Assembly (NCBI GenBank): GCA_021851405.1
Contig: JAJZDW010000024.1
Span: 1 to 57,667, forward strand
DNA: 57,667 nt
Direction: 5' to 3'
Origin: Pseudomonadota bacterium
Lineage (GTDB): Bacteria > Pseudomonadota > Gammaproteobacteria > Steroidobacterales > Steroidobacteraceae
In this document: positions 2,355-57,667 of the stretch, piece by piece
Layout: the number at the start of each line of letters is the position of its first letter
How positions within the stretch are numbered: position 1 is the stretch's first letter
The notes under the pieces: generated by a model
Database searches by the model: none
What the model was told of the DNA's origin: nothing
What the model saw: only the letters and a program-made list of their open reading frames with translations
Position numbers and translations under genes: made by a program

Positions 2355-2367
2355 CGCATGGATTCCT

Positions 2368-26049: not shown

Positions 26050-26757
26050 GTGAAGAAGACATCGCTTGCATCGTTTGGGGTCTGCCTGCTCGCCGCCGGC
26101 GTGCTGGCGGGGTGCAGTTCGCCGAATGCCGACTGGCAGAAGGCCTCGGCGCAGGGCACCGTGGCCGCCTACCGCAGCTTCATCCAGCACCACCCCGACG
26201 ACCCGCGGGTGCAGCAGGCGCGCAACCGCATCGAATCCCTGCAGGACCAGCACGCCTGGCAGAGCGCCAAGAGCGCCGGCACCGTGCAGTCCTACCAGCA
26301 GTATCTGGCGCAGTACCCGAACGGGGCGTACACGGCCGAGGCCCAGGGTGCGCTGACGAGCCTGAAGGAAGCGAGCGCCTGGCAGAGCGCCAAGAGCGCC
26401 GGGACGGTGGCCGCCTACGAGGCGTTCGTCAGCCAGTTCCCCAGTGCGACCGAAGCGAGCAAGGCGCAGGCTGCCATCGACAAGCTGGCCGGCTTCCAGG
26501 TCGAACTCGGCCGCTACCGCACGGCCAGCGCGGCAAGCACCGCGGCCCAGCAGCTGAAGACCCGCTTCGCGAGTCTGCTCACCCAGGTGCAGGTGATCGC
26601 GCCGTCCGGTACCCACAAGCTGACGACCCTGCGCTCCCAGCAAATGAGCCACGCGGCTGCACTTGCCGCCTGCGCCACGCTGCGCCGGGCGCACCAGAGC
26701 TGCTCGGTGGTCAAGATCCAGGCGAAGTCCGGCGGTCTGAGCCTCTCCGGACTGTAA
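26050..26757 (+). CDS. repeat lipoprotein with a possible C-terminal SPOR-like domain
   Basis: A 235-residue lipoprotein from a GTG start: signal with lipobox LAGC (C22), then three repeats of about 40 residues built on (A)DWQKASAQGTV or AWQSAKSAGTV followed by YxxFxxxxP, a TPR-like helical pattern. The last 75 residues (FQVELGRYRTASAASTAAQQL to VVKIQA) resemble a SPOR domain, which binds denuded peptidoglycan glycan strands. The second and third repeats share 27 identical bases, suggesting recent duplication. It follows the lipid operon but behind a hairpin, so it is probably transcribed separately. Its 3' end overlaps the outer-membrane factor gene on the other strand by 47 bases. Confidence 0.8.
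   Translation: MKKTSLASFGVCLLAAGVLAGCSSPNADWQKASAQGTVAAYRSFIQHHPDDPRVQQARNRIESLQDQHAWQSAKSAGTVQSYQQYLAQYPNGAYTAEAQGALTSLKEASAWQSAKSAGTVAAYEAFVSQFPSATEASKAQAAIDKLAGFQVELGRYRTASAASTAAQQLKTRFASLLTQVQVIAPSGTHKLTTLRSQQMSHAAALAACATLRRAHQSCSVVKIQAKSGGLSLSGL
26253..26402 (+). repeat. direct repeat inside the lipoprotein gene
   Basis: The 27 bases at 26253-26279 recur exactly at 26376-26402, 123 bases (41 codons) apart and in frame. They encode the AWQSAKSAG core of successive protein repeats. The first repeat copy (about 26130) has diverged. Confidence 0.85.
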
Positions 26758-28234
26758 CGGCGGCGTCCGATCCGGCGGCCGTCACCCGGCCGCCGGCCGC
26801 CAGCATCAGAGTGATGGTATCGAGATACTGGCGATGCTCGGCGGCCAGCAGTCCGAGTTGCGCCCGCTCGCGCTGACGCTGTGCATCGAGGACCGGCAGA
26901 AGGCCGGAGTTGCCCGCCTGGTAGCTCGCCCGTTCCAGGTGCACCCGCCGGCGCGAGAGCGCGAGCGCCCGGTGTTCCGCGGCGCGCAGTTGCGCATCGT
27001 GACGCAGCGCATCGAGCGCATCGGCCACCTGGCCGAAGGCACTGATCACCACCTGCTGGTACAGCTCGGCGCGCTCATGCAGCGCATCGAGTGCCGCGCG
27101 CCGCTCGGCATGCAGCTTTCCGCCCTCGTACAGCGGCGCGGTGAGGCCCGAGATCAACGACCAGGCGAGCGAGCTGGCATCGAACAGGTGCTGCGGCCGC
27201 AGCGCCTCTTCGCTCAGCGTTGCGCTCAGCGTGATCTGCGGATACAGCTTCGCGGTCGCGATGCCGACCGCGGCGGTCGCGGCCCGCAGCTGCGCCTCGG
27301 CGGCGAGGATGTCCGGACGGCGCTTGAGCAACCGTGACGGCAGCGCGACCGGCACCTGTGACGGCAGGCGAATCTCGCTAAGCTCGAGATCGGGACGGCG
27401 CCAGGCCGCCGGCGTGCGCCCGAGCAACACGGCGAGCGCATGCCGCGCGACGCTCAGACGCTGGTACAGCGGCGGCAGCAGCGTGGCGTCGCTGGCGAGC
27501 TGGGTCTGCGCGGTGAGGACGTCGAGGCGCGGCACGGATCCGGCGGCGACCGACGCGCGCACGAGCTTCAGGTTCACACGATCCTCGCGCAGCAGGTTGC
27601 GCACGGCGCGGATTTCGGCGTGGGCCGTGGCGATGTCGAGCGCCTCGGCGACCACCTGTCCGCTGAGCATCAGCCGCGTGGCGGCGAGTTCGCTGCGCTG
27701 ATACTGTTCGGCGGCGCGCGCCTCCTCGACGCTGCGGCGGACCTCGCCGAGATAATCGAGCTGATACGCGACGCTGACGCCACCGGCGATGTAGCTGAAC
27801 GGCGCGAACGCGTCCGGACCGAGAAATTCCGCGCCGTACTTCTGCCGCCCGGCCCCGGCATTGAAGCGGATGTGCGCAGCGCGCCCCGCGGCGCCCACCG
27901 TCACCCCTTCGCGTGACTGCTGAAGTGCCGCCTGCGCGGCCGCGACGTCATGATTGTCGGCGAGTGCGGTGCGCACCAGAGCATCGAGCTGCGGGGAGCG
28001 AAACAGCTGCCACCACGGCCCGCTCGCGCCGGCACCGAGCGCTGCGTGCTCCCGATACGCACCCACCGCGGCATGCTCGCCACGCACCTGCTCGCCCCTG
28101 GGACGATAGTGTTCACCGGCCGGCACCGTTGGGCGATGAAAGGCCGGTCCCACCGCGCAGCCGCCGAGCCCGGCCGCCGCTGCCGCGATGAGCAGGCAGC
28201 GTCCGAGGCGAACATACTTTGCGGCGCGTGCCAT
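26711..28234 (-). CDS. NodT-family outer-membrane efflux lipoprotein
   Basis: Outer-membrane channel of 507 residues with a lipoprotein signal (lipobox LGGC, around residue 26) and the family start AVGPAFHRPTVP. Two structural repeats, each with long alpha-helical segments rich in Ala, Arg and Leu, match TolC/OprM-like factors. I use the ATG at 28234 (GGAG seven bases upstream) rather than the adjacent GTG at 28237. It is the last gene of the MarR-EmrA-EmrB operon, lying directly after emrB, and should complete that pump. The RND pump at 4938-9126 lacks its own channel and could also use it. Its 3' end runs 47 bases into the convergent lipoprotein gene. Confidence 0.93.
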   Translation of the reverse strand: MARAAKYVRLGRCLLIAAAAAGLGGCAVGPAFHRPTVPAGEHYRPRGEQVRGEHAAVGAYREHAALGAGASGPWWQLFRSPQLDALVRTALADNHDVAAAQAALQQSREGVTVGAAGRAAHIRFNAGAGRQKYGAEFLGPDAFAPFSYIAGGVSVAYQLDYLGEVRRSVEEARAAEQYQRSELAATRLMLSGQVVAEALDIATAHAEIRAVRNLLREDRVNLKLVRASVAAGSVPRLDVLTAQTQLASDATLLPPLYQRLSVARHALAVLLGRTPAAWRRPDLELSEIRLPSQVPVALPSRLLKRRPDILAAEAQLRAATAAVGIATAKLYPQITLSATLSEEALRPQHLFDASSLAWSLISGLTAPLYEGGKLHAERRAALDALHERAELYQQVVISAFGQVADALDALRHDAQLRAAEHRALALSRRRVHLERASYQAGNSGLLPVLDAQRQRERAQLGLLAAEHRQYLDTITLMLAAGGRVTAAGSDAAVTVRRGSDRRTSPGS

Positions 28235-28238
28235 CACA

Positions 28239-29762
28239 CTACTCCATGACCAGCGGTTCTTCGCTTGAGCTGCGAGCGCGCCGCGGCTTCAACAGAAGCA
28301 GCAGCGGAAACAGCGAAAGCGTCATCACGAACATCAGTTTGAAATCGTCGTTGTAGGCGATCATGCGCGCCTGACGCGTCACGAGTGCGTTGAGCGCGGA
28401 CAGCCCGGCGATCGAGGTGAAGCTGAACGGGGCGTGCAGCTGGATCTGCGCCCCGTAGGGCACGATGTGCGACGCCAGCCGTTCGTGCATGACCTGGGTG
28501 TTGCGCGTCAGCAAGGCGCTGGTCGCGGCGATGCCGACGCTGCTGCCGATGTTTCGCAGCAGGTTGTACACGGCGGTGCCCTCGGAGCGCAACTTTGGCG
28601 CCAAGGTGGAAAAGGCGACCGTCGTCATGGTGACGTAGGTCAATCCGATGCCAAGACCCTGCATGAAGGTCACGCCCCAGATCAGCGACTGCGGCATCTG
28701 AGTGGAAAAATAGCTCGCCATGTTCCACAGCGACAGCGAGGCAATCGATAGACCGACACCGATGAGGAGGCGCGGGTCGAACTTCTCCATCAACCGCCCG
28801 GCGAGGAACATCGCCACGAAGCTTCCGAAGCCGCGCGGCGCCATGGCGATGCCGGTCGTGAGCACCGGATAGCCGAGCAGATCTTCCAGCAACGGCGGCA
28901 GCAGAGCAAGGGTCGCAAACAGCACCATGCTGACCACGACGATGAGGATATTGCCGGCGTTGAAATTGCGGTCGCGAAACAGGCTGGGACTGACGAACGG
29001 CTCGCGCGCCGAGAAGGTATGCACGAGGAACCAGTACAGACCGAGGACGGCAAGCCCCATCTCGACCCAGATCTCGGTCGAGCCGAACCAGTCCTTGAGC
29101 GAGCCCCGATCGAGCATGATCTGCAACGCACCGACCGCGAGACTCAGGGTGGCGAAACCGAAGAAGTCGAACGAGGACTTGCGCTTCTGCGTCTCGCGCA
29201 GGTAGGTCATGATGCCGATCGCCGAGAGGATGCCGAACGGTACGTTGATGTAGAACACCCACCGCCAGCTGTAACTGTCGGTGAGCCAGCCGCCGAGCAC
29301 CGGGGCGAGCATCGGGCCGAGCACCACGCCCTGTCCCCAGAGCGCCATCGCCCGCCCGTGTCGCTCGGGCGGATTGATATCGAGCAGCACCGCTTGGGAG
29401 AGCGGCACGAGTCCGGCACTGAATCCGCCCTGAAGCAGACGAAAGAGCACGATCTGATCGATGGTCTGCGCCATGCCGCACAGCGCCGAGGTCACCGTGA
29501 AGCCGAGCACGGAGATCAGCAACACGTTCTTGCGGCCGAACCGGCCGGCGAGCCACCCGGACAGCGGCGTGACGATCGCCGCCGCCACGATGTAGGAGGT
29601 CAACACCCAATCCATCTGATCGATCGTCGCGGACATGGAGCCGCCAATGTGCGGCAGCGCGACGTTGGCGATGGTCGTGTCGACCGATTGCAGAATCGTT
29701 GCCAAGGTCACCGCAATGGTGATCGGCACACGGTGGATCCTGTCGTGTTCAGCATCGGTCAT
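28239..29762 (-). CDS. emrB: EmrB-like DHA2-family drug exporter (MFS)
   Basis: A 507-residue inner-membrane transporter with about 14 helices, the size of EmrB/QacA proteins. Features include the DHA2 start ILQSVDTTIANVALPHIGG, the first-loop motif GWLAGRFGRKNVLL, and the helix-5 antiporter motif GVVLGPMLAPVLGGWLTD. It exports hydrophobic compounds in exchange for protons. It lies 12 bases downstream of emrA and is followed at once by the channel gene. Substrate is not predictable. Confidence 0.94.
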   Translation of the reverse strand: MTDAEHDRIHRVPITIAVTLATILQSVDTTIANVALPHIGGSMSATIDQMDWVLTSYIVAAAIVTPLSGWLAGRFGRKNVLLISVLGFTVTSALCGMAQTIDQIVLFRLLQGGFSAGLVPLSQAVLLDINPPERHGRAMALWGQGVVLGPMLAPVLGGWLTDSYSWRWVFYINVPFGILSAIGIMTYLRETQKRKSSFDFFGFATLSLAVGALQIMLDRGSLKDWFGSTEIWVEMGLAVLGLYWFLVHTFSAREPFVSPSLFRDRNFNAGNILIVVVSMVLFATLALLPPLLEDLLGYPVLTTGIAMAPRGFGSFVAMFLAGRLMEKFDPRLLIGVGLSIASLSLWNMASYFSTQMPQSLIWGVTFMQGLGIGLTYVTMTTVAFSTLAPKLRSEGTAVYNLLRNIGSSVGIAATSALLTRNTQVMHERLASHIVPYGAQIQLHAPFSFTSIAGLSALNALVTRQARMIAYNDDFKLMFVMTLSLFPLLLLLKPRRARSSSEEPLVME

Positions 29763-29774
29763 CGCGGCGGCGCT

Positions 29775-30869
29775 TCAACCTGAGGCGGACGCGGAGTGCT
29801 GGCGCGCAGCCGGCCCCGACTGAGTATCGATCGTCACCGCGGCGCTCAGCCCCGAGCGCACCGGCGGCATGCGCCCCACCAGGCGCAGCCGCACGTCGAG
29901 CCGCTGCACGACCTTGACCCAGTTGCCGGTGGCATTCTGCGGCGGCAGCACGGAGAACTGCGCGCCGGTGCCCGGGGTGATGCTGGAGACGACGGCGTGG
30001 AACGTTTCATCCGGATACGCATCCATGCTCACGGTCGCCGTGTCGCCCGGGCGGATGTGGGTGAGCTGATTTTCCTTGTAGTCCGCCTCGATCCACACGT
30101 CGCGCGTGGAGACGAGGACGAACGCCGGGGTCGCGAGCGGCAGGTAGCCGCCGACCTGCAGGTGATTCACTTCCGTCACGATGCCTTCCGTGGGGGCGCG
30201 CACCGTGGTGTAGGACAGCTTAAGCAGCGCACGATCGAGCAGCGCCTGCGCCTCGGCGACCTGGGGATGCTGGCGCACCGGCAGCGCCGGGTTGCCGCCG
30301 AGGCGGGCGAGCACGGCCTCGATCTGCTGCTGTGCGGCGCTGACCGCGGCCTGCGACTGCTGCACGGCCAAGCGGGCCCGATCGAATTGCGACGTCGAGG
30401 ACACGCCGATCTTCAGCAGCCGCTCGCGACGCAGAAGTTCGCGCCGTGCATACGCCTGACGGCTCTGGGCCGAGTTCAGCGCCGCAAGGTCGGCGCGGTA
30501 GTCCGCCTCGAGCGCGCGCACGGTCAGACGTGCGGCGGCCAACCGGGCGCGCGCCGCGGCGACCGCGATGCGCAGCCGCCGCGGATCGAGCCGGAAGAGC
30601 ACCTGCCCTTGTTTCACCCGTTCGTTGTCGTGGACATCCACCTGAACGACGCGTCCGGAAACGTCCGCACTGATCTGCACCTCGGCGGCACGCAGATACG
30701 CATCGTCGGTCGACTGGTAGCGGCCGCTCGTGAGATAGAGATACACGGCCCCGGCGACCACGATCGCCGGCACGCCCCACAGGAGCGGGCGGCGCAGACG
30801 TTCGCGCAGCGGCCGGGTCGCGGGCGTGGATGCGTGCTCGGACGGGGCGTCGCGCCCGGAATCGTTCAT
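29775..30869 (-). CDS. emrA: EmrA-like membrane fusion protein (HlyD family)
   Basis: Periplasmic adaptor of 364 residues. One N-terminal membrane helix (PLLWGVPAIVVAGAVYLYL) is followed by the lipoyl half-motif DDAYLRAAEVQISADVSGRV, a long coiled-coil hairpin (about 100-200) and a second lipoyl half with TVRAPTEGIVTEVNHLQVGGYL. The ATG at 30869 overlaps the marR stop (ATGA), which fixes the start. It connects EmrB to the NodT-type channel. Confidence 0.93.
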   Translation of the reverse strand: MNDSGRDAPSEHASTPATRPLRERLRRPLLWGVPAIVVAGAVYLYLTSGRYQSTDDAYLRAAEVQISADVSGRVVQVDVHDNERVKQGQVLFRLDPRRLRIAVAAARARLAAARLTVRALEADYRADLAALNSAQSRQAYARRELLRRERLLKIGVSSTSQFDRARLAVQQSQAAVSAAQQQIEAVLARLGGNPALPVRQHPQVAEAQALLDRALLKLSYTTVRAPTEGIVTEVNHLQVGGYLPLATPAFVLVSTRDVWIEADYKENQLTHIRPGDTATVSMDAYPDETFHAVVSSITPGTGAQFSVLPPQNATGNWVKVVQRLDVRLRLVGRMPPVRSGLSAAVTIDTQSGPAARQHSASASG

Positions 30870-31363
30870 CGGTTGGACCTCGTGGACCTGCGCCCGGCAT
30901 CGGGCGCGCAAGACTCATCGACCGGCAGCGGCGGGAGCTCCGTCAGATTCGCGTGCACACGCTCGAGTAGCCGCATCAGCTGCGCCCGCTCCTCGCTCGA
31001 GAGCCCCTGCAGCATCTCCGCGCGCGTCTCGGTGATCAGCCGCCAGATCTGCTCGAGCACGGGGAGCGCCTCGGCGGTGAGCCAGAGGGTGTGCGCGCGC
31101 CGGTCGGCCGGATCGAAGCGCCGCTGCACCCAGCCGTCGGCCTCCATGCGATCGAGGATGCGCACCAGCGTCATCGGGTCGACGTCCGAGAGTTCGGCGA
31201 GCCGCTTCTGGCTCACCCCCTCGTTGCTCTGCAGATGAATCAGCGCGCGGCACTGGGGCAGCGTCAGTGCGAGCGCCTGGGCGCGCTCCTCGAAGCGCCG
31301 CGTGTAGCGGCGGCTGACGTCCTTGAACAGGAAGCCCAATTGGCGAAATTGATCGATGGTCAT
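30866..31363 (-). CDS. MarR-family repressor of the efflux operon
   Basis: A 165-residue winged-helix regulator. The DNA-binding part reads LPQCRALIHLQSNEGVSQKRLAELSDVDPMTLVRILDRMEADGWVQRRFDPADRRAHTLWLT, in pieces the typical MarR pattern with the wing DPADRRAH. Such proteins usually repress their own operon until a phenolic or drug ligand binds. It is the first gene of marR-emrA-emrB-channel, and an AT-rich nested palindrome stands 8-50 bases before its start, giving a clear autoregulation model comparable to EmrR. Confidence 0.92.
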   Translation of the reverse strand: MTIDQFRQLGFLFKDVSRRYTRRFEERAQALALTLPQCRALIHLQSNEGVSQKRLAELSDVDPMTLVRILDRMEADGWVQRRFDPADRRAHTLWLTAEALPVLEQIWRLITETRAEMLQGLSSEERAQLMRLLERVHANLTELPPLPVDESCAPDAGRRSTRSNR

Positions 31364-48904: not shown

Positions 48905-50176
48905 TCAGGCGGTGCAGATCTCCCGCAGCAGGGCCGCAAAGCGTTCAATCTCCTCGAGCGTGTTGTAGTGCACCAGCGAAACGCGCACCGCGCCGCTGTC
49001 GACGTCCAAGCCCAGCCGCCGCATCAACCGAGGTGCATACATATGACCGTCGCGAATGCCGATGCCCCCGGCGGCGGCGGCCTTCACCACCTCCGCTGGT
49101 TCGACACTCGGAAGATTGAAGCATACCGTCGGCACCCGCGCGCCGACCTGAGCGGGATCTGCAGTTCCGTAAACATCCGCACCCAGCCGCTCGAGCATCT
49201 GCAGTAAGGCAAACGAGAGCGTCTGCTCGTACGCTTGAATCGCGACCATCGCCGTTACGCAATTCTCCCGTATGGCGTCGTGCGCGCTGACCGCTTCAGC
49301 TCCCGCCAGCCGGCGCCCAAGATCCGCCAAATAGTCCACTGCGGCCGCCATCCCCGCGACGTTCTCATAGATGAACGTACCGGCCTCGACCTTTCCCGGA
49401 GGCACATCCGGAATGAATTCCTCGCGAAATGTCGGCAGTGCCGCGAGCGCGGAATACCGGCCCCAGAGAAATCCCATGTGGGGCGCAAATATCTTGTAGC
49501 CTGAACACACCAAGTAATCACATCCCAGCGCGCGCACGTCAATCGGACCGTGCGGTCCGTAGTGCACTGCATCGACGAACACCTCTGCGCCGACCGAGTG
49601 GGCGAGCCGCGACACGCCGCTCACATCCACAATGCTGCCAAGTGCGTTTGAGGCCAGCGTACAGGCCACCAACCGAGTTTTCGCACTCAGTAGCTGATCG
49701 AGATCCTCCAGATGCAGTCGCCCGTCAGTGCGCGCACTCCACCATCTGATGCGGGCACCCACACTCTGCAGAGCGCACCAGGTAGCGATGTTCGCCTCGT
49801 GATCTAGGTCGGTCACGACGATCTCCTCGCGACCCTGCAGCGTCTGACCGACCGCGAGGCTGATCGTCCGGATGAACGAGGTCGCGTTCATCCCGAAGCC
49901 GATCTCCTCGGGACTCCATGCATTGAGGAAAGCGGCAACTCGCACGCGAGCACGCGCGATCATGTCATCGACGGCCACGCTCTGGGCGTATCGACCTCCG
50001 CGCTGAACGTTGTGTTCGAGAAGATGGGTGTTGACGGCGTCCAGCACTCTCTGAGGAATCTGCGCGCCAGCGGCATTATCGAAATAAATGAACCGCCCGA
50101 CAGGACGCAGGGCCGGAAACTCGCTGCGCAGCGCAAGAACGGGAAATTCCGGGCCACGTTTCGCGTGAGTCGTCAT
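48905..50176 (-). CDS. class-V PLP enzyme of the VC1184 (TIGR01976-like) group
   Basis: A 423-residue fold-type I enzyme. PLP binding is indicated by SGYK (K228) and the preceding VDAVHYGPHGPI Asp region. The C terminus, GIRDGHMYAPRLMRRLG and VRVSLVHYNTLEEIE, matches the VC1184-type subfamily often named cysteine desulfurase. However, the SufS/CsdA catalytic cysteine (in the family RAGHHCAQP) is replaced here: the equivalent stretch is GHMYAP, with no Cys. A desulfurase mechanism is therefore unlikely; aminotransferase, racemase/epimerase or C-S/C-N lyase activity is more plausible. It is the last gene of the leftward TBDR cluster, 122 bases after its neighbour. Confidence 0.85.
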   Translation of the reverse strand: MTTHAKRGPEFPVLALRSEFPALRPVGRFIYFDNAAGAQIPQRVLDAVNTHLLEHNVQRGGRYAQSVAVDDMIARARVRVAAFLNAWSPEEIGFGMNATSFIRTISLAVGQTLQGREEIVVTDLDHEANIATWCALQSVGARIRWWSARTDGRLHLEDLDQLLSAKTRLVACTLASNALGSIVDVSGVSRLAHSVGAEVFVDAVHYGPHGPIDVRALGCDYLVCSGYKIFAPHMGFLWGRYSALAALPTFREEFIPDVPPGKVEAGTFIYENVAGMAAAVDYLADLGRRLAGAEAVSAHDAIRENCVTAMVAIQAYEQTLSFALLQMLERLGADVYGTADPAQVGARVPTVCFNLPSVEPAEVVKAAAAGGIGIRDGHMYAPRLMRRLGLDVDSGAVRVSLVHYNTLEEIERFAALLREICTA

Positions 50177-50298
50177 GATTCTGCCCCAATTCGGCCGTAC
50201 CGTGCGCCCATGAGTGTTTAGCTGCCTCTTAAACGCCGACCAGACCGTTACGAACAGGAAATTTAGATCTTTTGTCCTAACGCAACGGTCGTCCGATG

Positions 50299-51456
50299 TT
50301 AAGGAGTTTCCGGCGCGAATTGACCGCGCAAGCGTTCAAGCTCGGCGACGAACCGATCAATGTCCGATTCAGTGTTATAGAAGTGACAGGTCACACGAAT
50401 ATTGTTGTCGCGGAATGACGTCACAATATCCGCCGCCGTGAGGTGCTCAAAGAGTTCCGCGGTGTTGCGCGCGGGTACGGCCACCATCGGACCGCGTCGC
50501 GCATCATCAAGCGGCGTCACCGCAGACCAACCGATGTCGATGAGCTGCCGCAAGCAATATCTCGTGAGCGCGCGCACACGTGCCTCTATTTGCCGGGGAT
50601 CTGCTTCCAGAACAATCTTAAGACCAGCCTCGGCGGCGTAGCAATTCACCACTGCAGGTGTTCCCGCTTCGAACCGGCGGGCACTCTCCGAGGGACGATT
50701 GGCGAAGATGTCCATGGCGGCGATATTCTGTTGCGCAAACCATCCGCTGTGGGTCGGCACCAGTTCACGGATCCATCGGTCTCGGACATACAGAAAGCCA
50801 ATCCCGGCGGTTCCAAGGAGATACTTGAGCATGCCGCCGACGATGAAGTCGACTCCGAGCGCGCGAGCATCGACCTGCAGAGCACCAATCGCCTGGTAAG
50901 TATCAAGCAGAACGCGTGCACCGCGAGCATGTGCGATCTTCACAATGCCGGGAATATCGAGACGGGCGCCGTTGCGAAAGCAGACGTGGGTCACCGCCAC
51001 GAGCAGGGTATGTTCATCGATCGTCCGCTCGAAGTGTTCGAGCGGTATATATCCGTCCGCGGCGCGCGGCACATGAACCACCCGAGCACCGCGACGCTCC
51101 TGGGCGTGCCAGATCTGTGCATTGGTCGGGAACTCGAAATCGCTAACCACGACCTTGTTGCGCGTACCGCTGAAATCGAGCGCGCTGGCAAGCGCATTGA
51201 TGCCCGCGGATGCGGACGCCGTGATCGCGACTTCGTCCGACGTCACACCGAGCAGCTGCGCCATCAGGGCGCGAACTGACTCGTTCTTCGTGATCCACAC
51301 ATCCCAGTTGGCGCCCACGGCGAGCCGGTCATCCATGTAATTGTTAACTGCGTCGCGCACCGTATCGGCAAGCGCACAATATGACCCACTGTTCAAATAG
51401 GTCTTACGCTCCAGGACCGGGAACCGGCGCCGCAATGCTTCGAAATCGGTCGTCAC
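50299..51456 (-). CDS. class-V PLP enzyme, aminotransferase/epimerase-like
   Basis: A 385-residue fold-type I enzyme. The PLP-lysine is in GGMLKYLLGTAG (K211), preceded by LLDTYQAIGALQVD with the ring-binding Asp. The start FEALRRRFPVLERKTYLNSGSY is typical of class-V proteins of the isopenicillin-N-epimerase and SufS branch. No Cys lies in the C-terminal loop (NNIRVTCHFYNTESDID has a Cys in a different setting), so I do not call it a desulfurase. It lies 82 bases after the permease gene in the same direction, and a second class-V enzyme follows. Substrate unknown; the pairing suggests consecutive steps on one amino-acid-like compound. Confidence 0.83.
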   Translation of the reverse strand: MTTDFEALRRRFPVLERKTYLNSGSYCALADTVRDAVNNYMDDRLAVGANWDVWITKNESVRALMAQLLGVTSDEVAITASASAGINALASALDFSGTRNKVVVSDFEFPTNAQIWHAQERRGARVVHVPRAADGYIPLEHFERTIDEHTLLVAVTHVCFRNGARLDIPGIVKIAHARGARVLLDTYQAIGALQVDARALGVDFIVGGMLKYLLGTAGIGFLYVRDRWIRELVPTHSGWFAQQNIAAMDIFANRPSESARRFEAGTPAVVNCYAAEAGLKIVLEADPRQIEARVRALTRYCLRQLIDIGWSAVTPLDDARRGPMVAVPARNTAELFEHLTAADIVTSFRDNNIRVTCHFYNTESDIDRFVAELERLRGQFAPETP

Positions 51457-51538
51457 CTTGCTACCTCAACTGATTAATCCGATGTAATCCTGCGGATACT
51501 CGCTCCGGCGCACCCGACTCATCCTGTGCGCGATGAAC

Positions 51539-52939
51539 TCAGGCCCGCGCTGCCTTAGCAATGCGCGCGCGATGGCGCATGCGCCAGAGAAAGTACGCGC
51601 TTGAGATCAGGATCACCCACGGAACCCCATACACCCAGGACAGACTCAGGCTGGGCGTAAATCCCATCGTGACCAGTATGGCCGCGAGCATGGCGAGCCC
51701 AGCGTACTGCATCCAGGGGAAGAACGGCATCCGCACCGGCAGATCCGCGGTCCGATTGCGGCGGCGGAAACTCAAATGGCAGACCAGAATGAACATCCAC
51801 ACCAGAATCGCCGCAAAGAGCGCGACGCCGAACAGGTCCGCGTACGCATTCGGGGTAAAAATTGACACTGCCGCGGAGATCAAGACACAAACGCCGGAAA
51901 CCACGATGGCCGTCACCGGACTTCCACGCTCGGATAGTTTGCCGAGTTGTCGCGGCGCGTACCCGCCGCGCGAAAGTGAGAAGAGCATGCGCGCACAGAG
52001 ATACACATTGGTATTCATGCTCGAGAGTGCGGCGCTGATGACCACGAAGTTCATGACGCCGGCGGCATCCCGGATACCAGAATGCTTGAACACCGTTACG
52101 AACGGGCTTTGCGCGACCACCGCAACACCTGTGTCGGTCCACGGAATTGTCGCGACGATCACGGTGATCGCAAGTACGTAAAAGAGGAACAGTCGCAGCA
52201 CCATCGTGCGCAACGCGGCCGGTATCGCGACTCTGGGATTCTTCGTCTCCCCGGAAGTGACCGCGATGACTTCAATGCCGTTGAAGGAGAAGATTCCGAC
52301 CGTGACTGCCATCCACAGGCCGGCCAGACCTTTCGGCAGGAAGCCTCCAGGTAGGCCGACCAGATTGTGTGCTCCCACCGCGAGACGACCGATACCGAAA
52401 ATACTGGTCACTCCGAGGGTGATGAACAGCACGATCGCCACGACTTTGATCAGAGCGAACCAAAATTCAACGGTACCGAAGTTTCCCACCGATCTGGAAT
52501 TGAAGTAGAGCATCACGAGGCAGAAGCTGATCGCCCACACCCCGACTGGCACATGCGGGAACCAGTACTGCATGTAGAGTCCGGCGGCGACAGACTCGCC
52601 GCCGATGGCGATGACCTGTGAGATCCAATACGTGTAGCGGACGACGAATCCAGCCCACGGATTCAAATAGGTCTCCGCATAGATTCCGAAGGAGCCGGCG
52701 GCCGGATGCACGACCGCCATCTCCGAAAGACTGAAGACCATGACCAGTGCGACGAAGCCAGCGAGCATGTAGCTCACGATAACCGCGGGCCCCGCATACC
52801 CGACTGCGAGCCCGCTGCCCATGAACAGCCCGGTGCCGATTGCACCGCCGAGGCCGATCATCACGACCTGCGCCTTACTCAGGCCGCGGTGCAGTCCACC
52901 TTCACGCTGACCGAGAACCTCCTGATGCGACTGCTCCAC
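51539..52939 (-). CDS. amino-acid permease (APC superfamily, AAT family)
   Basis: A 466-residue inner-membrane transporter with 12 helices. Helix 1 reads IGLGGAIGTGLFMGSGLAVGYAGP, the substrate-binding signature of GABA/proline/lysine-type amino-acid permeases, and a long family stretch VHPAAGSFGIYAETYLNPWAGF follows. It starts six bases after the TonB-dependent receptor stop, implying translation coupling and shared function: the receptor brings a compound across the outer membrane and this protein takes it, or a product, across the inner membrane. The substrate is probably an amino acid or derivative. Confidence 0.92.
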   Translation of the reverse strand: MEQSHQEVLGQREGGLHRGLSKAQVVMIGLGGAIGTGLFMGSGLAVGYAGPAVIVSYMLAGFVALVMVFSLSEMAVVHPAAGSFGIYAETYLNPWAGFVVRYTYWISQVIAIGGESVAAGLYMQYWFPHVPVGVWAISFCLVMLYFNSRSVGNFGTVEFWFALIKVVAIVLFITLGVTSIFGIGRLAVGAHNLVGLPGGFLPKGLAGLWMAVTVGIFSFNGIEVIAVTSGETKNPRVAIPAALRTMVLRLFLFYVLAITVIVATIPWTDTGVAVVAQSPFVTVFKHSGIRDAAGVMNFVVISAALSSMNTNVYLCARMLFSLSRGGYAPRQLGKLSERGSPVTAIVVSGVCVLISAAVSIFTPNAYADLFGVALFAAILVWMFILVCHLSFRRRNRTADLPVRMPFFPWMQYAGLAMLAAILVTMGFTPSLSLSWVYGVPWVILISSAYFLWRMRHRARIAKAARA

Positions 52940-52945
52940 GAGGCC

Positions 52946-55333
52946 TCAGAAGCGGCGCGTGATCGTGATGCCGATAGTTCGCGGCTGCACGGTCAGGAGC
53001 GCATGCGGGTCCTGGGTTGAATTGATCGCGGAAACCTGTGCGCGATCGTTGGTGGCATTGTGCACGAAAAGCGTTACCGACCAGTGATGGTAAATGACGC
53101 CAGCCCGCAGATCCCATAGCGTATACGCCTTCAACGGGAGATTGAACGGGTCGGACGCGAAATACGAGTCTACCGCTCCGCGATAGCTCACATTCGTACC
53201 CAGACTACCGATCCAATCGCCAACCAGCGGTCGGGTGTAGTCGAGTTGGACGTTGAACTGGAACTCTGGCACGTTTGGGATCCGGTCGCCCGTCAGGCCG
53301 AGGGTGGGATTGAGCTGCTTCTGCTGTGCGCTTGCGCCCTGCAGCAGATAGGCATTCTGGTAAGAACCGGCGACGGTCGTGGTCAGGTAGCGCACCGGGC
53401 GCGCCTTGACTTGGAACTCAACGCCCTTCACTTGCGCCTTGCCAGCGTTCCCTTGGTACACGAACGCGCCGTCCGGCGTAGTCAGCTGCACCTGGATATT
53501 GTTCCAATGGATCAAATACCCGTCGAGCTGATATTCAAGGTAACCGTTTAGCAATCGACCCTTGAGCCCGAGCTCATAACTGATGAGCGAGTCTGGCGAA
53601 TACGCCTTCGGCACCGGCTCAAACGGTTCGCTCAGGGCGTTCAGACCACCGCTTCGAAACCCGGTCGCGACAGTGCCATACAGCAGCGCTGCAGATCCGA
53701 ATTTGTAGCTGAGGTCACCCATCCAGGTCACTTTGTTGAAGGTCTCATTGGGATCAAATACGGGCACGTCGCTCGGCGTTCCGGGTGGAAACCCGCCGAA
53801 CGGATGCGTCTGCACCTGTACCCCGGAAAGGTTCTCGGTGTAATAGCGGGCGCCGGCCTCTGCCGTCCAACGGTGTGTGATCTTCCAGGTCGCCTGACCG
53901 AAGCCGGCCCATTGTACCGTCTCGCGATGATCGGTACGCCCAAAGAACGTATTACCCACTCCCGGATAATTGAGCGCGTCGGCGCTGTTCGCGCTGCTGA
54001 ACGGACCGGTCACCAGTCCCAACGCGTCTGTCGTAATCACCTGTGCAGCGAAATTGGTAGCGGTCTGCTGCCGGAACGCTCCGACTACAAAGTTAACCGG
54101 AGAATTGAGAGTAGTCGCGAATCGAACCTCGGTGGAATTCGATTTGCGCTTCAGCGGCTCGAGCGTTTCCGCCGGGACCGGAACGCCGAACGATACGAGG
54201 ATGGGGGTCGAATCGAAGGAGAAGCTCGTATCTCGGTTGAATTGATTCGTCGTGGCGGTGAGTTTGCCCAGTCGCGTGGTCCACTTCACCGTTGCGCCGA
54301 AAACCTTGATGTTATCTTTCCACGGACTTTGCGTCACATCGGTATTGCACAAATCACAGCCCGTCACCGGTGGAATCGTGCCGCCGGCGAATCCCTGAAT
54401 GCCGGGCGGCGTCCAACGTGATGAGCCGCCGGAACGTTCGCTTTGGGCCGTGTAATTCAGATCCACGACGAGATTGCGACTGGGACGATAACGCAGGATG
54501 GCCCGTCCGCCGCCAACATCGTCGTAATTCACGCCTTTTAGGAATCCGAGCGGTTGGATCGGCGTACTCACACCGTTGACCAGGGCCGTGACGCCACTGC
54601 CGACGCGAATTTGGTTCACGTAGCCGCTGTCATATAGCTTCCAGCCCACCAAGCGCAGGGCGAGGACATTCTTGACGATCGGCAGGTTGAGCATGCCGTT
54701 GACGTTGTAATTGTTACCGGCGTGCTGCGTTTGGGAGTCTTCGATCGACACGTAGCCCTTGGTGCGACTCAAGTTCGGCTTGTTCGGAATGAAGCGGATC
54801 GTGCCGCTCATCGAACTTGCGCCGTAGAGCGTGCCTTGCGGGCCTCGAAGCACCTCAATGCGGTTGATGTCATACAGCCGGATGTCCGGCTGAAATCCGC
54901 CACCGTCGTTGCTGTTCCCCTGAGTGATCACCGCCTCGCCGTAGTAGACGCCCACGGTGGACGCCCCGGTCGAATCGATGCCGCGGATGATGTATCGCCG
55001 GTCACCCGGCCCCAGGGTCTGTACCGCAAGACCTGGAATCTGCCCAGCGACGCTCATGATGCCTGTTGCGTCCTCGCGCTGCAGCGTCGCCCCGGTAATC
55101 GCCTGGATAGACGCCGGTACGTTGATGATGTTCGCCGCACCGAGTTTGGTGGCAGTCACAACCACCTCACGCAACATGCCGGTGCGGATCACCGAGCTGG
55201 CGTAGCTCGAAGTTTGGGCAGCAGTCTTTGCCGAGCTCGCGCTCGCGGCAGTGACCGATTGCGATCCGAGCGCGGCGAGGGCAACGCTCGAGGCTACGGC
55301 GAGAGCGATCTCGTTGCGGGCAGCTTTTGACAC
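52946..55333 (-). CDS. TonB-dependent outer-membrane receptor
   Basis: A 795-residue receptor from a GTG start, with a signal peptide-like N terminus and a TonB-box-like LREVVVTATK. The plug domain (about 55-170) includes PDIRLYDINRIEVLRGPQGTLYGASSMSGTIRFIP; the remainder is a 22-strand barrel pattern ending in the C-terminal RRF. The type (large oxide-like barrel with GPQGTLYG) is that of Xanthomonas/Caulobacter scavenging receptors rather than classical siderophore receptors, and no iron genes lie nearby. It lies 56 bases behind the cupin gene and directly before the amino-acid permease. Confidence 0.93.
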   Translation of the reverse strand: MSKAARNEIALAVASSVALAALGSQSVTAASASSAKTAAQTSSYASSVIRTGMLREVVVTATKLGAANIINVPASIQAITGATLQREDATGIMSVAGQIPGLAVQTLGPGDRRYIIRGIDSTGASTVGVYYGEAVITQGNSNDGGGFQPDIRLYDINRIEVLRGPQGTLYGASSMSGTIRFIPNKPNLSRTKGYVSIEDSQTQHAGNNYNVNGMLNLPIVKNVLALRLVGWKLYDSGYVNQIRVGSGVTALVNGVSTPIQPLGFLKGVNYDDVGGGRAILRYRPSRNLVVDLNYTAQSERSGGSSRWTPPGIQGFAGGTIPPVTGCDLCNTDVTQSPWKDNIKVFGATVKWTTRLGKLTATTNQFNRDTSFSFDSTPILVSFGVPVPAETLEPLKRKSNSTEVRFATTLNSPVNFVVGAFRQQTATNFAAQVITTDALGLVTGPFSSANSADALNYPGVGNTFFGRTDHRETVQWAGFGQATWKITHRWTAEAGARYYTENLSGVQVQTHPFGGFPPGTPSDVPVFDPNETFNKVTWMGDLSYKFGSAALLYGTVATGFRSGGLNALSEPFEPVPKAYSPDSLISYELGLKGRLLNGYLEYQLDGYLIHWNNIQVQLTTPDGAFVYQGNAGKAQVKGVEFQVKARPVRYLTTTVAGSYQNAYLLQGASAQQKQLNPTLGLTGDRIPNVPEFQFNVQLDYTRPLVGDWIGSLGTNVSYRGAVDSYFASDPFNLPLKAYTLWDLRAGVIYHHWSVTLFVHNATNDRAQVSAINSTQDPHALLTVQPRTIGITITRRF

Positions 55334-55389
55334 GATTTAACCCCAGTGACTCATTTGTTATTGACGCCGTAGCACTGCTGCGGCGCCTG

Positions 55390-56448
55390 TCAGTCGTAAT
55401 AATTGATGCTTGGATTGTCGCCCGGGCATATGACCCCGACGACGAGCATGCCCTCGGCGTCGATCGCCTCGAGCGAGTGCAATTGCTTGCGTGGCAGAAA
55501 GATGACGTCTCCCGTGGCGACTCTGGCCTTGCGTGAGTCCGTCCACATCCATCCGCGGCCGGCGAGCACGATGATCGTTTCCTCGTAGAGGTGCCGATGC
55601 GGCGCCGCTTTGGAACGCGGAATGTGGCCGATGAACTGGGTCACCACCCGTGAACCGATCCGTTTGTCGACCAGAAGCTGAAAATAGCGAGGACCCATGG
55701 CGGTGCGCTGCGCAGCGTCGACTCTGACAATGCGCTGTGGATATGTGTCGTCAAAGTTTCCCGAAGCTTCGCCTAGCCAGGTCAGCTCCGTGGGCGGCGA
55801 GGCGAGCAGATAGACCTGGAGCGTCCGACCGTCGCGCGGCACGAGCTGGAGAGTTTCACCCGGTCGCAGGTACGCGCCGTCCGTCGCCTCAACCGCAAAA
55901 CGTCGTCCGCCGATGATGAGTTCGCCGCTGCCGGCCCCCACCAGAATTATGGCATCACTGTCACCGACGCCGAGCGGTGGCGTCTGGCCACCCACGGCTT
56001 CAAGCAGGTACTGACTCTGATACTGCGCGCCGAGTTCTGGTCCCACGATTCGGCTGTAGCGCAACGTTCCGTTGCTATCGCTGGATGCCGCATCCGGGCA
56101 AAAGACGTAACAGCCGCCGTCCAAGCGGCGCCTCGGGCCGTCCATATCGAGCACCGCTACAATCGCGCGATTTGAAGGGCTTTCCGGGTCATCGAGTGGA
56201 GAACCGCCCGGCAGGTTGGTATGCGCGCCGTCGCAAAACGGCGCACCGCTGGTGTGCTTGCAACCGCACAGCAGCACCTCCTCGGTTCGCTCGGCGACGA
56301 AGTGGCGCGGCTCGAATCCGCTCCCTTTGTGCGAGCCATCGCAGAAGGGCTGCCTCTGCGACCGTCCACAGGAACACCACAGGTAGGTTCGGCCGGCTTG
56401 CAGCGTCGTCAGATACGGCTTTGGGTGCGCAACCCATGGGGCGTTCAT
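55390..56448 (-). CDS. fusion of two CDGSH iron-sulfur motifs and a bicupin
   Basis: A 352-residue protein with an unusual architecture. Two CDGSH [2Fe-2S] motifs open it: C25, C27, C36, H40 (CSCGRSQRQPFCDGSH) and C61, C63, C72, H76 (CGCKHTSGAPFCDGAH). The rest is a bicupin. The first cupin (about 135-220) lacks metal-binding histidines. The second (about 255-345) has H284, H286, E290 and H324, a metal-binding cupin pattern with PRKQLH in place of the second motif glycine. It could couple electron transfer from the iron-sulfur centres to a metal-dependent oxygenase or hydrolase; that is inference. It heads the leftward gene set with the receptor, permease and two PLP enzymes. No ribosome site precedes the ATG. 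TetR gene lies 80 bases upstream. Confidence 0.9.
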   Translation of the reverse strand: MNAPWVAHPKPYLTTLQAGRTYLWCSCGRSQRQPFCDGSHKGSGFEPRHFVAERTEEVLLCGCKHTSGAPFCDGAHTNLPGGSPLDDPESPSNRAIVAVLDMDGPRRRLDGGCYVFCPDAASSDSNGTLRYSRIVGPELGAQYQSQYLLEAVGGQTPPLGVGDSDAIILVGAGSGELIIGGRRFAVEATDGAYLRPGETLQLVPRDGRTLQVYLLASPPTELTWLGEASGNFDDTYPQRIVRVDAAQRTAMGPRYFQLLVDKRIGSRVVTQFIGHIPRSKAAPHRHLYEETIIVLAGRGWMWTDSRKARVATGDVIFLPRKQLHSLEAIDAEGMLVVGVICPGDNPSINYYD

Positions 56449-56472
56449 GAATCTATACTGTTACCAACGGGT

Positions 56473-56489
56473 CCGCTGTTGTACAGCGG
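56473..56489. promoter_or_regulatory. 17-base palindrome before the CDGSH-bicupin gene
   Basis: CCGCTGT (56473-56479) and ACAGCGG (56483-56489) pair perfectly around TGT, 24 bases before the start codon. On the minus strand TATAGA (56458-56453 region) between it and the ATG resembles a -10. It may be an operator for the neighbouring TetR protein, or a terminator for tetR, whose stop is 39 bases away. Confidence 0.5.
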
Positions 56490-56528
56490 GGCTTTAGGCT
56501 GACCGGCCTAATGCGCGCGTCTCTTGGA

Positions 56529-57200
56529 TCAAGCGCTCATGCGCTGCTGGAGTTCAACTGGTGGCACCAGCCGCTCAATCGCGCAGCACGCCTGCTCGGT
56601 GATGTGTTGCGGGTCCTCGCAAAGACACGGACTAAGTATTTCCAGGATTCCGTGGTAACCGTCCTGTATCGCGGCGAGCGTGATCTCCCGCTCCTGGTAT
56701 TCCAGGTAGTTGACCCAGTTTTCCGAGAAGATCCAGCTCACCTCGACGATCGAGCGCAATCGGCGCGGATCTGCCGGCAGCTGCATCAGTCCACGCAACG
56801 CCAATGCCTGCATGAATTGCTCGATGACTTGAAGTCGCCGTTCTCGGTTCGCGACGTAGCGCTGGCGCAGTTGGGGATCCTGGCGCAGCAACCCGGCAAG
56901 CTCGCGGTAAAAAAAACGGTATTTGACGATCAGCTGCAACTGGCGCACGAACATCGCCGCCATATGCTCGAGGGTCGGGGCAAGATGATCTCGGTACCAG
57001 CCAGCGTTCATCTCATCGACTGCACAGTGATACAGAGCGAAGATGACGTCTCGCTTGTTCGGAAAGTGATACTGCAGGTTGCCCTTGCTGATGCCGCAGC
57101 GCTCGGCGATGCGGCTCGCCGACACCCCTGCGGTGCCCTCGGCATTGAACAGCTCGAGCGCGGCCTGAAGAATCCGCTGTTGCGTTGATCGTGTGGCCAT
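56529..57200 (-). CDS. TetR-family regulator of the receptor/PLP cluster
   Basis: A 223-residue regulator. The helix-turn-helix at residues 8-55 includes QQRILQAALELFNAEGTAGVSASRIAERCGISKGNLQYHFPNKRDVI, a RutR/YcdC-like pattern with GNLQYHFPNK, and the ligand domain has many Arg and Leu residues with TetR_C-type WVNYLEYQEREITL. It lies upstream and in the same direction as the CDGSH-bicupin gene and divergent from the acyl-CoA dehydrogenase, so it may control either or both. A direct repeat in its promoter may be its site. Confidence 0.92.
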   Translation of the reverse strand: MATRSTQQRILQAALELFNAEGTAGVSASRIAERCGISKGNLQYHFPNKRDVIFALYHCAVDEMNAGWYRDHLAPTLEHMAAMFVRQLQLIVKYRFFYRELAGLLRQDPQLRQRYVANRERRLQVIEQFMQALALRGLMQLPADPRRLRSIVEVSWIFSENWVNYLEYQEREITLAAIQDGYHGILEILSPCLCEDPQHITEQACCAIERLVPPVELQQRMSA

Positions 57201-57425: not shown

Positions 57426-57491
57426 CGGCCGGTCCCGCCGCGGCATCTGCGAGTGTTCGCCGGCCGGCGCTTTCCCCGGGGAGTCCATCAC

Positions 57492-57667
57492 GTGCCGTCA
57501 CGATTCGTAGATCCGCTGGACCTGTTCGACGTCCGCAGCGCGCTCACCGAAGAGGAGCGCATGGTGCAGGAGTCGGTACGGCGGCTCGTGGATGAGCGCG
57601 TGCTGCCGATCATCCGCGAATGCTTCGAGGAGCACCGCTTCCCGCGCGAGCTCGTCCCCGAGCTCGC
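57492..57667 (+). CDS. acyl-CoA dehydrogenase, N-terminal fragment
   Basis: Partial gene running off the right edge; 58 codons are visible from the GTG at 57492. They read LDLFDVRSALTEEERMV followed by SVRRLVDERVLPIIRECFEE and FPRELVPEL, the usual start of a glutaryl-CoA-dehydrogenase-like acyl-CoA dehydrogenase, which oxidises a short acyl-CoA with FAD and passes electrons to the electron-transfer flavoprotein. Catalytic residues are outside the window. It is divergent from tetR, behind a well-spaced promoter at 57397-57425. The family is clear; the exact substrate is not. Confidence 0.85.
   Translation, partial: MPSRFVDPLDLFDVRSALTEEERMVQESVRRLVDERVLPIIRECFEEHRFPRELVPEL

Follow-up and report, generated by a model that had tools for sequence, protein, structure and literature searches.

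A conserved six-gene unit with a CDGSH-bicupin protein is linked to isatin hydrolase and may convert a tryptophan-like substrate into isatin

Background

The aerobic breakdown of tryptophan is usually drawn via kynurenine or via indole-pyruvate and indole-acetate. Among the described systems, the iad loci for aerobic indole-3-acetate degradation in Variovorax and Bradyrhizobium come closest to the locus reported here; according to excerpts of the source (PMC9613470), they lead through isatin, isatinic acid, and anthranilic acid and encode the IorA/IorB-type proteins IadA and IadB as well as MarR regulators. The excerpted part of a review attributes importance in indole degradation to a 2-aminobenzoyl-CoA cluster (PMC6221969). 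The present analysis concerns a window of 57,667 nucleotides, representing one entire contig (JAJZDW010000024.1; G000:C42) of the 3.5-Mb draft genome of a member of the Steroidobacteraceae (GCA_021851405.1), and in particular six open reading frames (ORFs), all on the minus strand (48905-57200). In this order, they encode a TetR-family regulator, a protein combining CDGSH and cupin domains (CDGSH-bicupin), a TonB-dependent outer-membrane receptor (TBDR), an amino-acid permease of the APC family, and two class-V pyridoxal 5'-phosphate (PLP) enzymes, PLP2 and PLP1. The set probably feeds an isatin route from a tryptophan-like substrate; most likely, the set forms the upper part of a pathway whose lower part is the one described for indole-acetate degraders.

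Results and discussion

Conservation of the six-gene set

All six ORFs, which a preliminary description of the window had read as genes on one strand, were confirmed as real and closely spaced, with intergenic gaps of 80, 56, 6, 82, and 122 bases in set order; the gap of six bases between the receptor and permease genes, to which that description had drawn attention, was found as well. Only 467 bases of the contig remain upstream of the TetR gene, and the neighbour on that side is therefore cut short. A scan of one genome per GTDB species with six short peptide patterns from the window's CDGSH protein yielded 29 loci, 27 of which were used (L060 and L061, matching the CDGSH part only, were dropped). 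These named loci lean to close relatives, were fetched with up to 10 kb on each side, several being cut by contig ends, and overlap with the genomes examined below (L033 = G161, L034 = G079, L035 = G247).

The complete six-gene set was retrieved in nine of the 27 named loci (L033, L034, L035, L037, L038, L040, L042, L043, and L057), and a contig end falls inside the permease gene in two further loci (L036 and L039). A core of CDGSH-bicupin and PLP2 genes was present in 21 loci, some of them from sphingomonads, and 24 loci contained a transporter gene of either the APC family (14) or the sodium:neurotransmitter-type (SNF) family (10). A TBDR homologue with at least 35% identity occurred in 14 loci, and TetR and PLP1 genes occurred in 12 loci each. 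In nine sphingomonad loci, an SNF transporter replaces the permease, and genes for MarR and a VOC protein are found nearby instead of TetR. Cultivated carriers of the SNF version include Rhizorhabdus histidinilytica and Novosphingobium sediminicola. The CDGSH-bicupin and PLP2 genes are thus kept while unrelated transporters are swapped, suggesting one substrate class; we take the SNF family to include a bacterial tryptophan transporter. Further neighbours in the named loci were genes for IorB (nine loci), IorA (eight), a PrnB-family haem enzyme (seven), a second cyclase-family protein (seven), isatin hydrolase (five), and a monooxygenase/old-yellow-enzyme (OYE) fusion (five). The six genes form a real and conserved catabolic operon or unit beyond chance, in line with the uptake-and-processing unit proposed beforehand, plausibly for one amino-acid-like compound. 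The opposite possibility, namely that CDGSH-bicupin genes occur mostly without these neighbours, did not apply to the core (PLP2 in 21 and a transporter in 24 of the 27 loci) but applied in part to the full set, as shown by the counts for TetR, PLP1, and TBDR and by 13 of 32 CDGSH-bicupin carriers of the order lacking a PLP2-like match.

Linkage with isatin hydrolase

Profiles were compared across 296 genomes of the order, with E-value limits of 2e-44 for CDGSH-bicupin, 1e-70 for PLP2, 1e-40 for isatin hydrolase, and 0.001 for PrnB. CDGSH-bicupin was found in 32 genomes (partially in G023, G075, G088, and G162; a fragment in G057 and many matches of about 80 residues resembling stand-alone CDGSH proteins were left out), isatin hydrolase in 39, PLP2-like proteins in 34, and PrnB in 33 (including a 104-residue fragment in G255). 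Isatin hydrolase was present in 26 of the 32 CDGSH-bicupin carriers versus 13 of the 264 non-carriers (Fisher 3.8e-22), and still in 18 of 24 carriers after leaving out eight carriers of genus g30 with a hydrolase that looks to be of the indole-acetate type. As the Fisher values ignore phylogeny and genome size is uncontrolled, fairer controls are the split within the window's genus (22 genomes), with isatin hydrolase in 10/10 carriers versus 0/12 others (1.5e-6), and the sphingomonads, with 4/4 carriers versus 14/145 other genomes (1.6e-4) in the family of G300 (Rhizorhabdus; 149 genomes), which is presumably the Sphingomonadaceae. In addition, all 11 genomes of L047, L049-L056, L058, and L059 possess isatin hydrolase, one match being partial; G299 and G300 belong both to these 11 genomes and to the 149. 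The CDGSH-bicupin is genetically linked to isatin hydrolase. Similarly, PLP2 was found in 19/32 carriers versus 15/264 non-carriers, 13/32 carriers having no PLP2-like match at 1e-70, and PrnB in 19/32 versus 14/264. Genomes with PLP2 contained PrnB in 25/34 cases versus 8/262 for those without, the association of PLP2 with isatin hydrolase being weaker (18/34 versus 21/262). The canonical tryptophan dioxygenase is so common (177/296 genomes) that it cannot serve as a marker.

The linkage is also physical. In five loci (L035, L038, L039, L055, and L057), isatin hydrolase, IorA, and IorB genes and the FAD-monooxygenase/OYE fusion gene share a locus with the set or its core, the fusion gene lying opposite the cyclase-IorA-IorB run. 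The cyclase-family protein of L035 was identified as an isatin hydrolase by its match (PDB 5nmp, E-value of 2.9e-103), its identity as a kynurenine formamidase being rejected (2.4e-07). The IorA-like protein scored under its cut-off (TIGR03336, 274 bits), the IorB-like protein over that of NF006179, and the fusion protein of L038 over that of NF006101 (salicylyl-CoA 5-hydroxylase/oxidoreductase); we take 2-aminobenzoyl-CoA monooxygenase/reductase to have the same architecture as the latter. Furthermore, G223 (L073) contains on one strand genes coding for PLP2, an ornithine-cyclodeaminase-like protein, a threonine-dehydratase-like protein, MarR, TBDR, CDGSH-bicupin, and isatin hydrolase, and G267 (L075) contains such a run minus TBDR; in both cases, the CDGSH gene is followed directly on its strand by that of isatin hydrolase, with gaps of 27 (L073) and 62 bases (L075). 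The ornithine-cyclodeaminase-like and threonine-dehydratase-like proteins (L073, 13469-15422; L075, 4669-8860) could handle alanine or an imine. In G121 (L153) and G105 (L154), PLP2 and an SNF transporter are encoded at the edge of the isatin cluster. In the genome of the window, contig C16 (L137) carries an IorB-IorA-isatin hydrolase run and a monooxygenase-OYE-SDR-MarR-enoyl-CoA hydratase-acyl-CoA dehydrogenase run, its isatin hydrolase being 89% identical to the L035 copy; the iad-type combination of isatin hydrolase with IorA/IorB was thus retrieved in this genome (G000:C16). Seven of the 27 named loci also encode a second cyclase-family protein distantly resembling isatin hydrolase (among others, L033, 16457-17281; L037, 8957-9961; L047, 8805-9776). 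The L037 copy matches isatin hydrolase with an E-value of about 1e-16 to 1e-15, and the L037 and L047 copies start with an apparent signal peptide (read by eye), so they may be periplasmic amidases.

The proteins called in L137 (14 of 18.5 kb read) and in the window contained no recognisable Rieske motif, although the scan or gene calls may miss some, and a motif scan of the isatin-linked loci L035, L038, L039, L055, L057, L073, L075, L153, and L154 found none either. Its absence from G000:C16 indicates that isatin may come from something other than an adjoining indole-acetate dioxygenase. Six of 20 loci fetched (L138, L139, L148, L149, L151, and L152) did encode Rieske proteins and look to be of the indole-acetate type; L145, in which no genes were called, is uninformative. 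Given these two kinds of loci, isatin hydrolase was rejected as proof of one pathway everywhere. In the CDGSH locus L052, a Rieske-like protein is encoded (1702-2739), with about 7 kb separating it from the CDGSH gene. In genus g30, the CDGSH loci L077 and L081 have sulfatase, aminotransferase, carboxylesterase, and amidohydrolase genes as neighbours (named by eye). A sulfatase-like gene lies near the CDGSH-bicupin gene in L074, L077, L079, and L081, the last three also having aminotransferase and amidohydrolase genes; these loci may act on a different indolic compound, for example a sulfate ester.

Enzymes of the set and the PrnB-family partner

The domain assignments made beforehand were recovered (as two zf-CDGSH stretches, cupin, receptor plug and barrel, AA_permease, two class-V PLP enzymes, and TetR), except that Pfam detected the C-terminal cupin of the CDGSH-bicupin and not a second, N-terminal one, although the predicted structure is a two-barrel cupin (AlphaFold model, pLDDT 85.5). 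Both zf-CDGSH stretches were found, with PF09360 over its cut-off. Their residues C25, C27, C36, H40 and C61, C63, C72, H76, as well as the cupin residues H284, H286, E290, and H324, are kept in 46/46 aligned sequences (window included). Each CDGSH motif displays the 3Cys-1His ligands of CDGSH (NEET) [2Fe-2S] proteins, and the cupin barrel contains the HxH...E...H metal ligands of cupin-type metal oxygenases. Of the 2270 sequence relatives, all 120 among the matches listed had both domains, and two proteins named as Steroidobacteraceae were among the homologues. The fold was uninformative for naming the reaction, as oxalate decarboxylase, quercetinase, salicylate dioxygenase, and storage globulins tie at equal Z. 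A title search of the open-licence literature for CDGSH together with cupin or kynureninase found nothing relevant, only one unrelated paper for each pairing.

PLP1 scored over the cut-off of TIGR01976 (VC1184-type; 499.2 versus 352.35 bits), with PLP2 under it (92.4 bits). Solved relatives of PLP1 are FGM3 (9x4u, E-value of 9e-60), the closest in the PDB, and UstD (7mkv, 9e-39). FGM3 cleaves the Cβ-Cγ bond of 4-hydroxy-arginine, yielding L-alanine, as described in the excerpted part of the source (PMC10967133). Judging from this likeness, PLP1 may act as an FGM3-type Cβ-Cγ lyase on a γ-hydroxy amino acid, setting L-alanine free by a retro-aldol reaction. Both PLP1 and FGM3 have a tyrosine before the PLP lysine, the SGYK pattern being present in 12/13 PLP1 orthologues. 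Orthologues close to PLP1 (63% identity or more) occurred in 10/33 CDGSH-bicupin carriers versus 0/16 non-carriers; adding distant matches (38-40%) raised this to 19/49 genomes, two of them non-carriers. These counts among carriers make PLP1 an optional member of the set and PLP2 the commoner one.

PLP2 scored over no NCBIfam cut-off (best 25 of 30 matches). Against the kynureninase model TIGR01814, it reached 98.1 bits (97.5 in the genome search), the cut-off being 246.4. Its K211, W239, and R349, corresponding to the PLP lysine and the kynureninase tryptophan and arginine positions, are invariant (38/38); in the 14 kynureninase frames compared, three of which were misread, these residues were found in 11, 11, and 12 cases, respectively. 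The residue before the PLP lysine of PLP2 is leucine (33), methionine (3), or valine (2; n = 38) and never tyrosine, which precedes it in 11/14 kynureninase frames, the other three being the misread ones. A kynureninase above the cut-off was encoded in 14/14 genomes searched. PLP2 was rejected as a canonical kynureninase on its score, its signature, and the separate above-cut-off copy elsewhere in the genome. In the fold searches, kynureninase and desulfurases tie in one comparison; desulfurases make up the matches listed by Foldseek, where the absence of FGM3 among them is uninformative. Neither PLP enzyme reached the SufS cut-off (TIGR01979, 475.1 bits; PLP1 226, PLP2 144.6).

The PrnB-family gene, encoded in seven of the 27 named loci, matches PF08933 and SO4414 (E-value of 1.7e-136), which we place in the tryptophan dioxygenase superfamily. 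The genome of the window contains such a gene on contig C58 (L082). PrnB and PLP2 co-occur in 25 genomes of the order; trios of PrnB, PLP2, and CDGSH-bicupin genes were found in L093 and L094, and PrnB-PLP2 pairs without a CDGSH gene in L084-L088. Two of the latter (L087 and L088), from the window's genus, encode on one strand a PrnB-family enzyme, an APC permease, PLP2, and a 90-amino-acid protein (an Lrp-type ligand-binding domain by eye), in genomes with no isatin hydrolase match. Among carriers reached via the named loci or the family of G300, 7/13 had PrnB, versus 1/31 other genomes. No PrnB match was found in G267, with its PLP2-CDGSH-isatin hydrolase run, and in 6/11 sphingomonad carriers; there, the CDGSH-bicupin, if it is the oxygenase, must be able to work without PrnB. 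G277 had no match for PLP2 or PrnB, its CDGSH locus being cut by a contig end. With only 19/32 carriers of the order and 7/13 others having it, PrnB was rejected as an obligate partner. The open-licence literature yielded nothing on PrnB with kynureninase, on SO4414, or on oxindolylalanine with isatin and bacteria, and, for dioxindolylalanine, ten papers with no title on bacterial catabolism.

Proposed pathway and alternatives

The preliminary description had left the imported compound unnamed and had included sulphur compounds among the panels for growth tests. The genetic link to isatin hydrolase, IorAB, and the PrnB-family haem enzyme points to tryptophan or oxidised tryptophan instead, and the isatin link argues against sulphur compounds. 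The proposed pathway would form the upper half of isatin formation from tryptophan or oxidised tryptophan, a reading to which we assign, with the mechanism as written here, a probability of about 0.45. Judging from their families, TBDR and the permease would import the amino acid. The indole ring would then be oxidised at C2/C3 into dioxindolyl-L-alanine (3-hydroxy-2-oxindolylalanine), the main candidate catalyst being the CDGSH-bicupin, with its C-terminal cupin metal site and two [2Fe-2S] centres in the same chain that would pass electrons; the PrnB-family haem enzyme, encoded elsewhere in the genome, may perform one oxygenation. Subsequently, PLP2 and/or PLP1, either of which may be the isatin-forming enzyme, would split the Cβ-Cγ bond of this γ-hydroxy amino acid by a retro-aldol reaction into L-alanine and the ketone isatin. 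This would be the FGM3 reaction type, the reverse of aldol chemistry proposed for UstD and kynureninase, and conversion of dioxindolylalanine into isatin and alanine is the reaction that the gene set would need. Finally, isatin hydrolase would open isatin to isatinate, IorAB, as a 2-oxoacid oxidoreductase, may convert isatinate into 2-aminobenzoyl-CoA, and the FAD-monooxygenase/OYE fusion would start ring breakdown. The genes for this last stage are present in the window's genome on the other contig and are linked to the set in other genomes; the linkage is observed, and the chemistry and the substrate are predicted. A bolder version is doubtful, namely that the CDGSH-bicupin founds a new oxygenase family, a cupin with its own NEET-type [2Fe-2S] electron supply hydroxylating the oxindole or indole ring of tryptophan, and, together with a kynureninase-like PLP retro-aldolase, establishes an aerobic tryptophan route via dioxindolylalanine and isatin that bypasses kynurenine.

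Several observations weigh against this pathway. In the window's own genome, the isatin cluster is located on another contig (C16), and a canonical tryptophan dioxygenase and a kynureninase are already encoded. PLP2 lacks the tyrosine that kynureninases have before the PLP lysine, and the oxygenase role that the CDGSH-bicupin may have is suggested by its metal ligands and modelled fold only. Six of the 32 CDGSH-bicupin carriers have no isatin hydrolase match, four of them being at least 91% complete, and isatin hydrolase also occurs without CDGSH-bicupin (the 13/264 and 14/145 genomes mentioned above). Eight g30 genomes have CDGSH-bicupin and isatin hydrolase without a PLP2-like or PrnB match; the isatin hydrolase of g30 loci L138 and L139 lies in a Rieske-containing cluster of the indole-acetate type, so that the CDGSH protein there must act otherwise or on another indole. 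Of the 25 genomes in which PLP2 and PrnB co-occur, nine gave no match for isatin hydrolase; three of these nine (G114, G130, and G142) belong to the genus of the window and have no CDGSH-bicupin either. The product of the PLP2-PrnB pair need therefore not be isatin. Similarly, G105 has PLP2 in an isatin cluster and no CDGSH-bicupin or PrnB match. The g30, PLP2-PrnB, G105, and six-carrier exceptions indicate that the modules are separable, and confidence in the exact mechanism was therefore kept under one half.

Some of these exceptions would be accommodated by a second kynurenine-type route, in which the PrnB-family enzyme forms formylkynurenine or kynurenine, PLP2 acts as a divergent kynureninase yielding anthranilate and alanine, the CDGSH-bicupin is accessory or acts later, and the isatin genes belong to a separate indole pathway of the same degraders. 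This is unlikely, as PLP2 scores far under the kynureninase cut-off, 14/14 genomes also encode an above-cut-off kynureninase, and the tyrosine before the lysine is missing in 38/38 PLP2 sequences. Moreover, PLP2 genes occur inside isatin clusters (L153 and L154) and in runs on one strand that close with the CDGSH and isatin hydrolase genes (L073 and L075), and the profile of CDGSH-bicupin and isatin hydrolase within the window's genus is perfect (10/10 versus 0/12).

Alternatively, isatin or a substituted isatin could be reached in another order of steps from another indolic or aromatic substrate (oxidised tryptophan residues in peptides, a relative of indole-acetate, or a substituted indole amino acid), with the CDGSH-bicupin acting on an indole that is not an amino acid. 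Genomes with CDGSH-bicupin and isatin hydrolase and without PLP2 fit this explanation, and the TonB-dependent receptor may suggest a substrate larger or scarcer than free tryptophan; in addition, excerpts of the iad report describe conversion of indole-acetate into isatin via dioxindole-acetate and dioxindole (PMC9613470). Against it stand the amino-acid permease or SNF transporter in 24/27 loci, the two PLP enzymes, which suggest an amino-acid substrate, and the absence of a Rieske motif from the set-linked isatin clusters, making it quite improbable overall. A sulphur or selenium amino-acid system, with the class-V enzymes as desulfurase-like lyases and the CDGSH protein receiving or sensing Fe-S, is most improbable and was rejected on the desulfurase cut-offs and a missing cysteine: both PLP enzymes do score with SufS-type desulfurase models and chains, but far under every desulfurase cut-off listed, and 13/13 PLP1 orthologues have a tyrosine at what we take to be the position of the SufS catalytic cysteine. 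Isatin genes, furthermore, recur among the classified neighbours.

Features and neighbouring genes of the window

The features of the set are listed in Table 1. Upstream of the TetR gene, a block resembling the inverted repeat TTGAC-N13-GTCAA was seen by eye in L035 and L036 among 12 loci compared, with a weaker likeness in L033, L034, L037, L038, and L039 and none in the other five (L040, L042, L043, L046, and L057). An operator search across the loci found no exact palindrome in common, the similarity of the upstream block being read by eye only. A scan for promoters and terminators gave results at or below chance, and a promoter-like match upstream of TetR (57330-57303) was within chance. 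Beside TetR, the start of an acyl-CoA-dehydrogenase-like gene (57453-57667, plus strand; by eye) runs off the contig end; a homologous start is present in L040 (2-256) and a full gene in L041 (8541-9701; by eye and Pfam). Elsewhere in the window, two U32-peptidase genes and an adjoining gene for a UbiD-family decarboxylase (1491-4846) are unrelated to the set, and consecutive HlyD, MFS, and outer-membrane efflux genes (26711-30911) represent an operon of the tripartite drug-efflux type. Homologues of the HlyD and OEP parts are encoded upstream of the CDGSH gene in L045.

Table 1 Features of the six-gene set in the window
Feature	Position	Strand	Evidence
TetR-family regulator, first gene of the set	56529..57200	-	Pfam TetR_N 8.5e-14, PF13972 4.7e-22; orthologue in 12/27 named loci
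CDGSH-bicupin, 352 aa, two CDGSH [2Fe-2S] motifs and two-barrel cupin; candidate metal-dependent oxygenase	55390..56448	-	zf-CDGSH, cupin
CDGSH ligand stretch 1, residues C25-H40	56329..56376	-	Invariant 46/46; Pfam PF09360
CDGSH ligand stretch 2, residues C61-H76	56221..56268	-	Invariant 46/46; Pfam PF09360
C-terminal cupin metal site H284 H286 E290 H324	55477..55599	-	Invariant 46/46; Cupin_2 4.2e-13
TonB-dependent outer-membrane receptor (TBDR), 795 aa	52946..55333	-	Plug 7e-14, barrel 2.8e-35
APC-family amino-acid permease, 466 aa	51539..52939	-	AA_permease 6.5e-100
PLP2, class-V PLP enzyme, kynureninase-like, under kynureninase cut-off; proposed isatin-forming lyase	50299..51456	-	
PLP1, class-V PLP enzyme of TIGR01976; closest solved relative FGM3 (Cβ-Cγ lyase)	48905..50176	-	499.2 bits vs cut-off 352.35; FGM3 9x4u E 9e-60
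Candidate operator/promoter block upstream of TetR, inverted repeat TTGAC-N13-GTCAA	57314..57336	-	Read by eye

Comparison with known systems

If the proposed pathway is true, an operon reaching isatin directly from the amino acid would add a branch to aerobic tryptophan breakdown and explain isatin hydrolases without an adjoining indole-acetate oxygenase. CDGSH-cupin fusions would gain a testable function, and the CDGSH-bicupin may represent a new enzyme family. The set would also be a natural source of enzymes for reversible aldol reactions of isatins; such reactions have already been performed with promiscuous enzymes, as the excerpted part of one report describes (PMC13397446).

Compared with cupin dioxygenases (quercetinase and salicylate 1,2-dioxygenase) and other bicupins, none of which is titled a CDGSH protein among the matches listed, the CDGSH-bicupin stands apart; oxalate decarboxylase and seed globulins score equally to the cupin dioxygenases against it, so its fold names no reaction. 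PLP1 resembles FGM3 and UstD by sequence, both of which act on γ-hydroxy amino acids. In contrast to PLP1, FGM3 serves fungal secondary metabolism, as UstD presumably does. PLP2 shares with kynureninase (TIGR01814, 1qz9) the fold, the PLP lysine, and the positions of Trp239 and Arg349, but differs from it by scoring under the family cut-off and by having no tyrosine before the lysine. Two of the known families are represented outside the window: PrnB/SO4414 is the product of a partner gene of other loci, and the homologue of isatin hydrolase (PDB 5nmp, 5nna, and 4j0n) is encoded on contig C16 of the window's genome. Finally, the iad locus has the same lower route as proposed here, namely via isatin, isatinic acid, and anthranilic acid and with IorA/IorB-type subunits, whereas its upper part contains a COG4638 oxygenase subunit, presumably of the Rieske type, acting on indole-acetate, instead of which the set described here encodes TBDR, an amino-acid permease, the CDGSH-bicupin, and two PLP enzymes.

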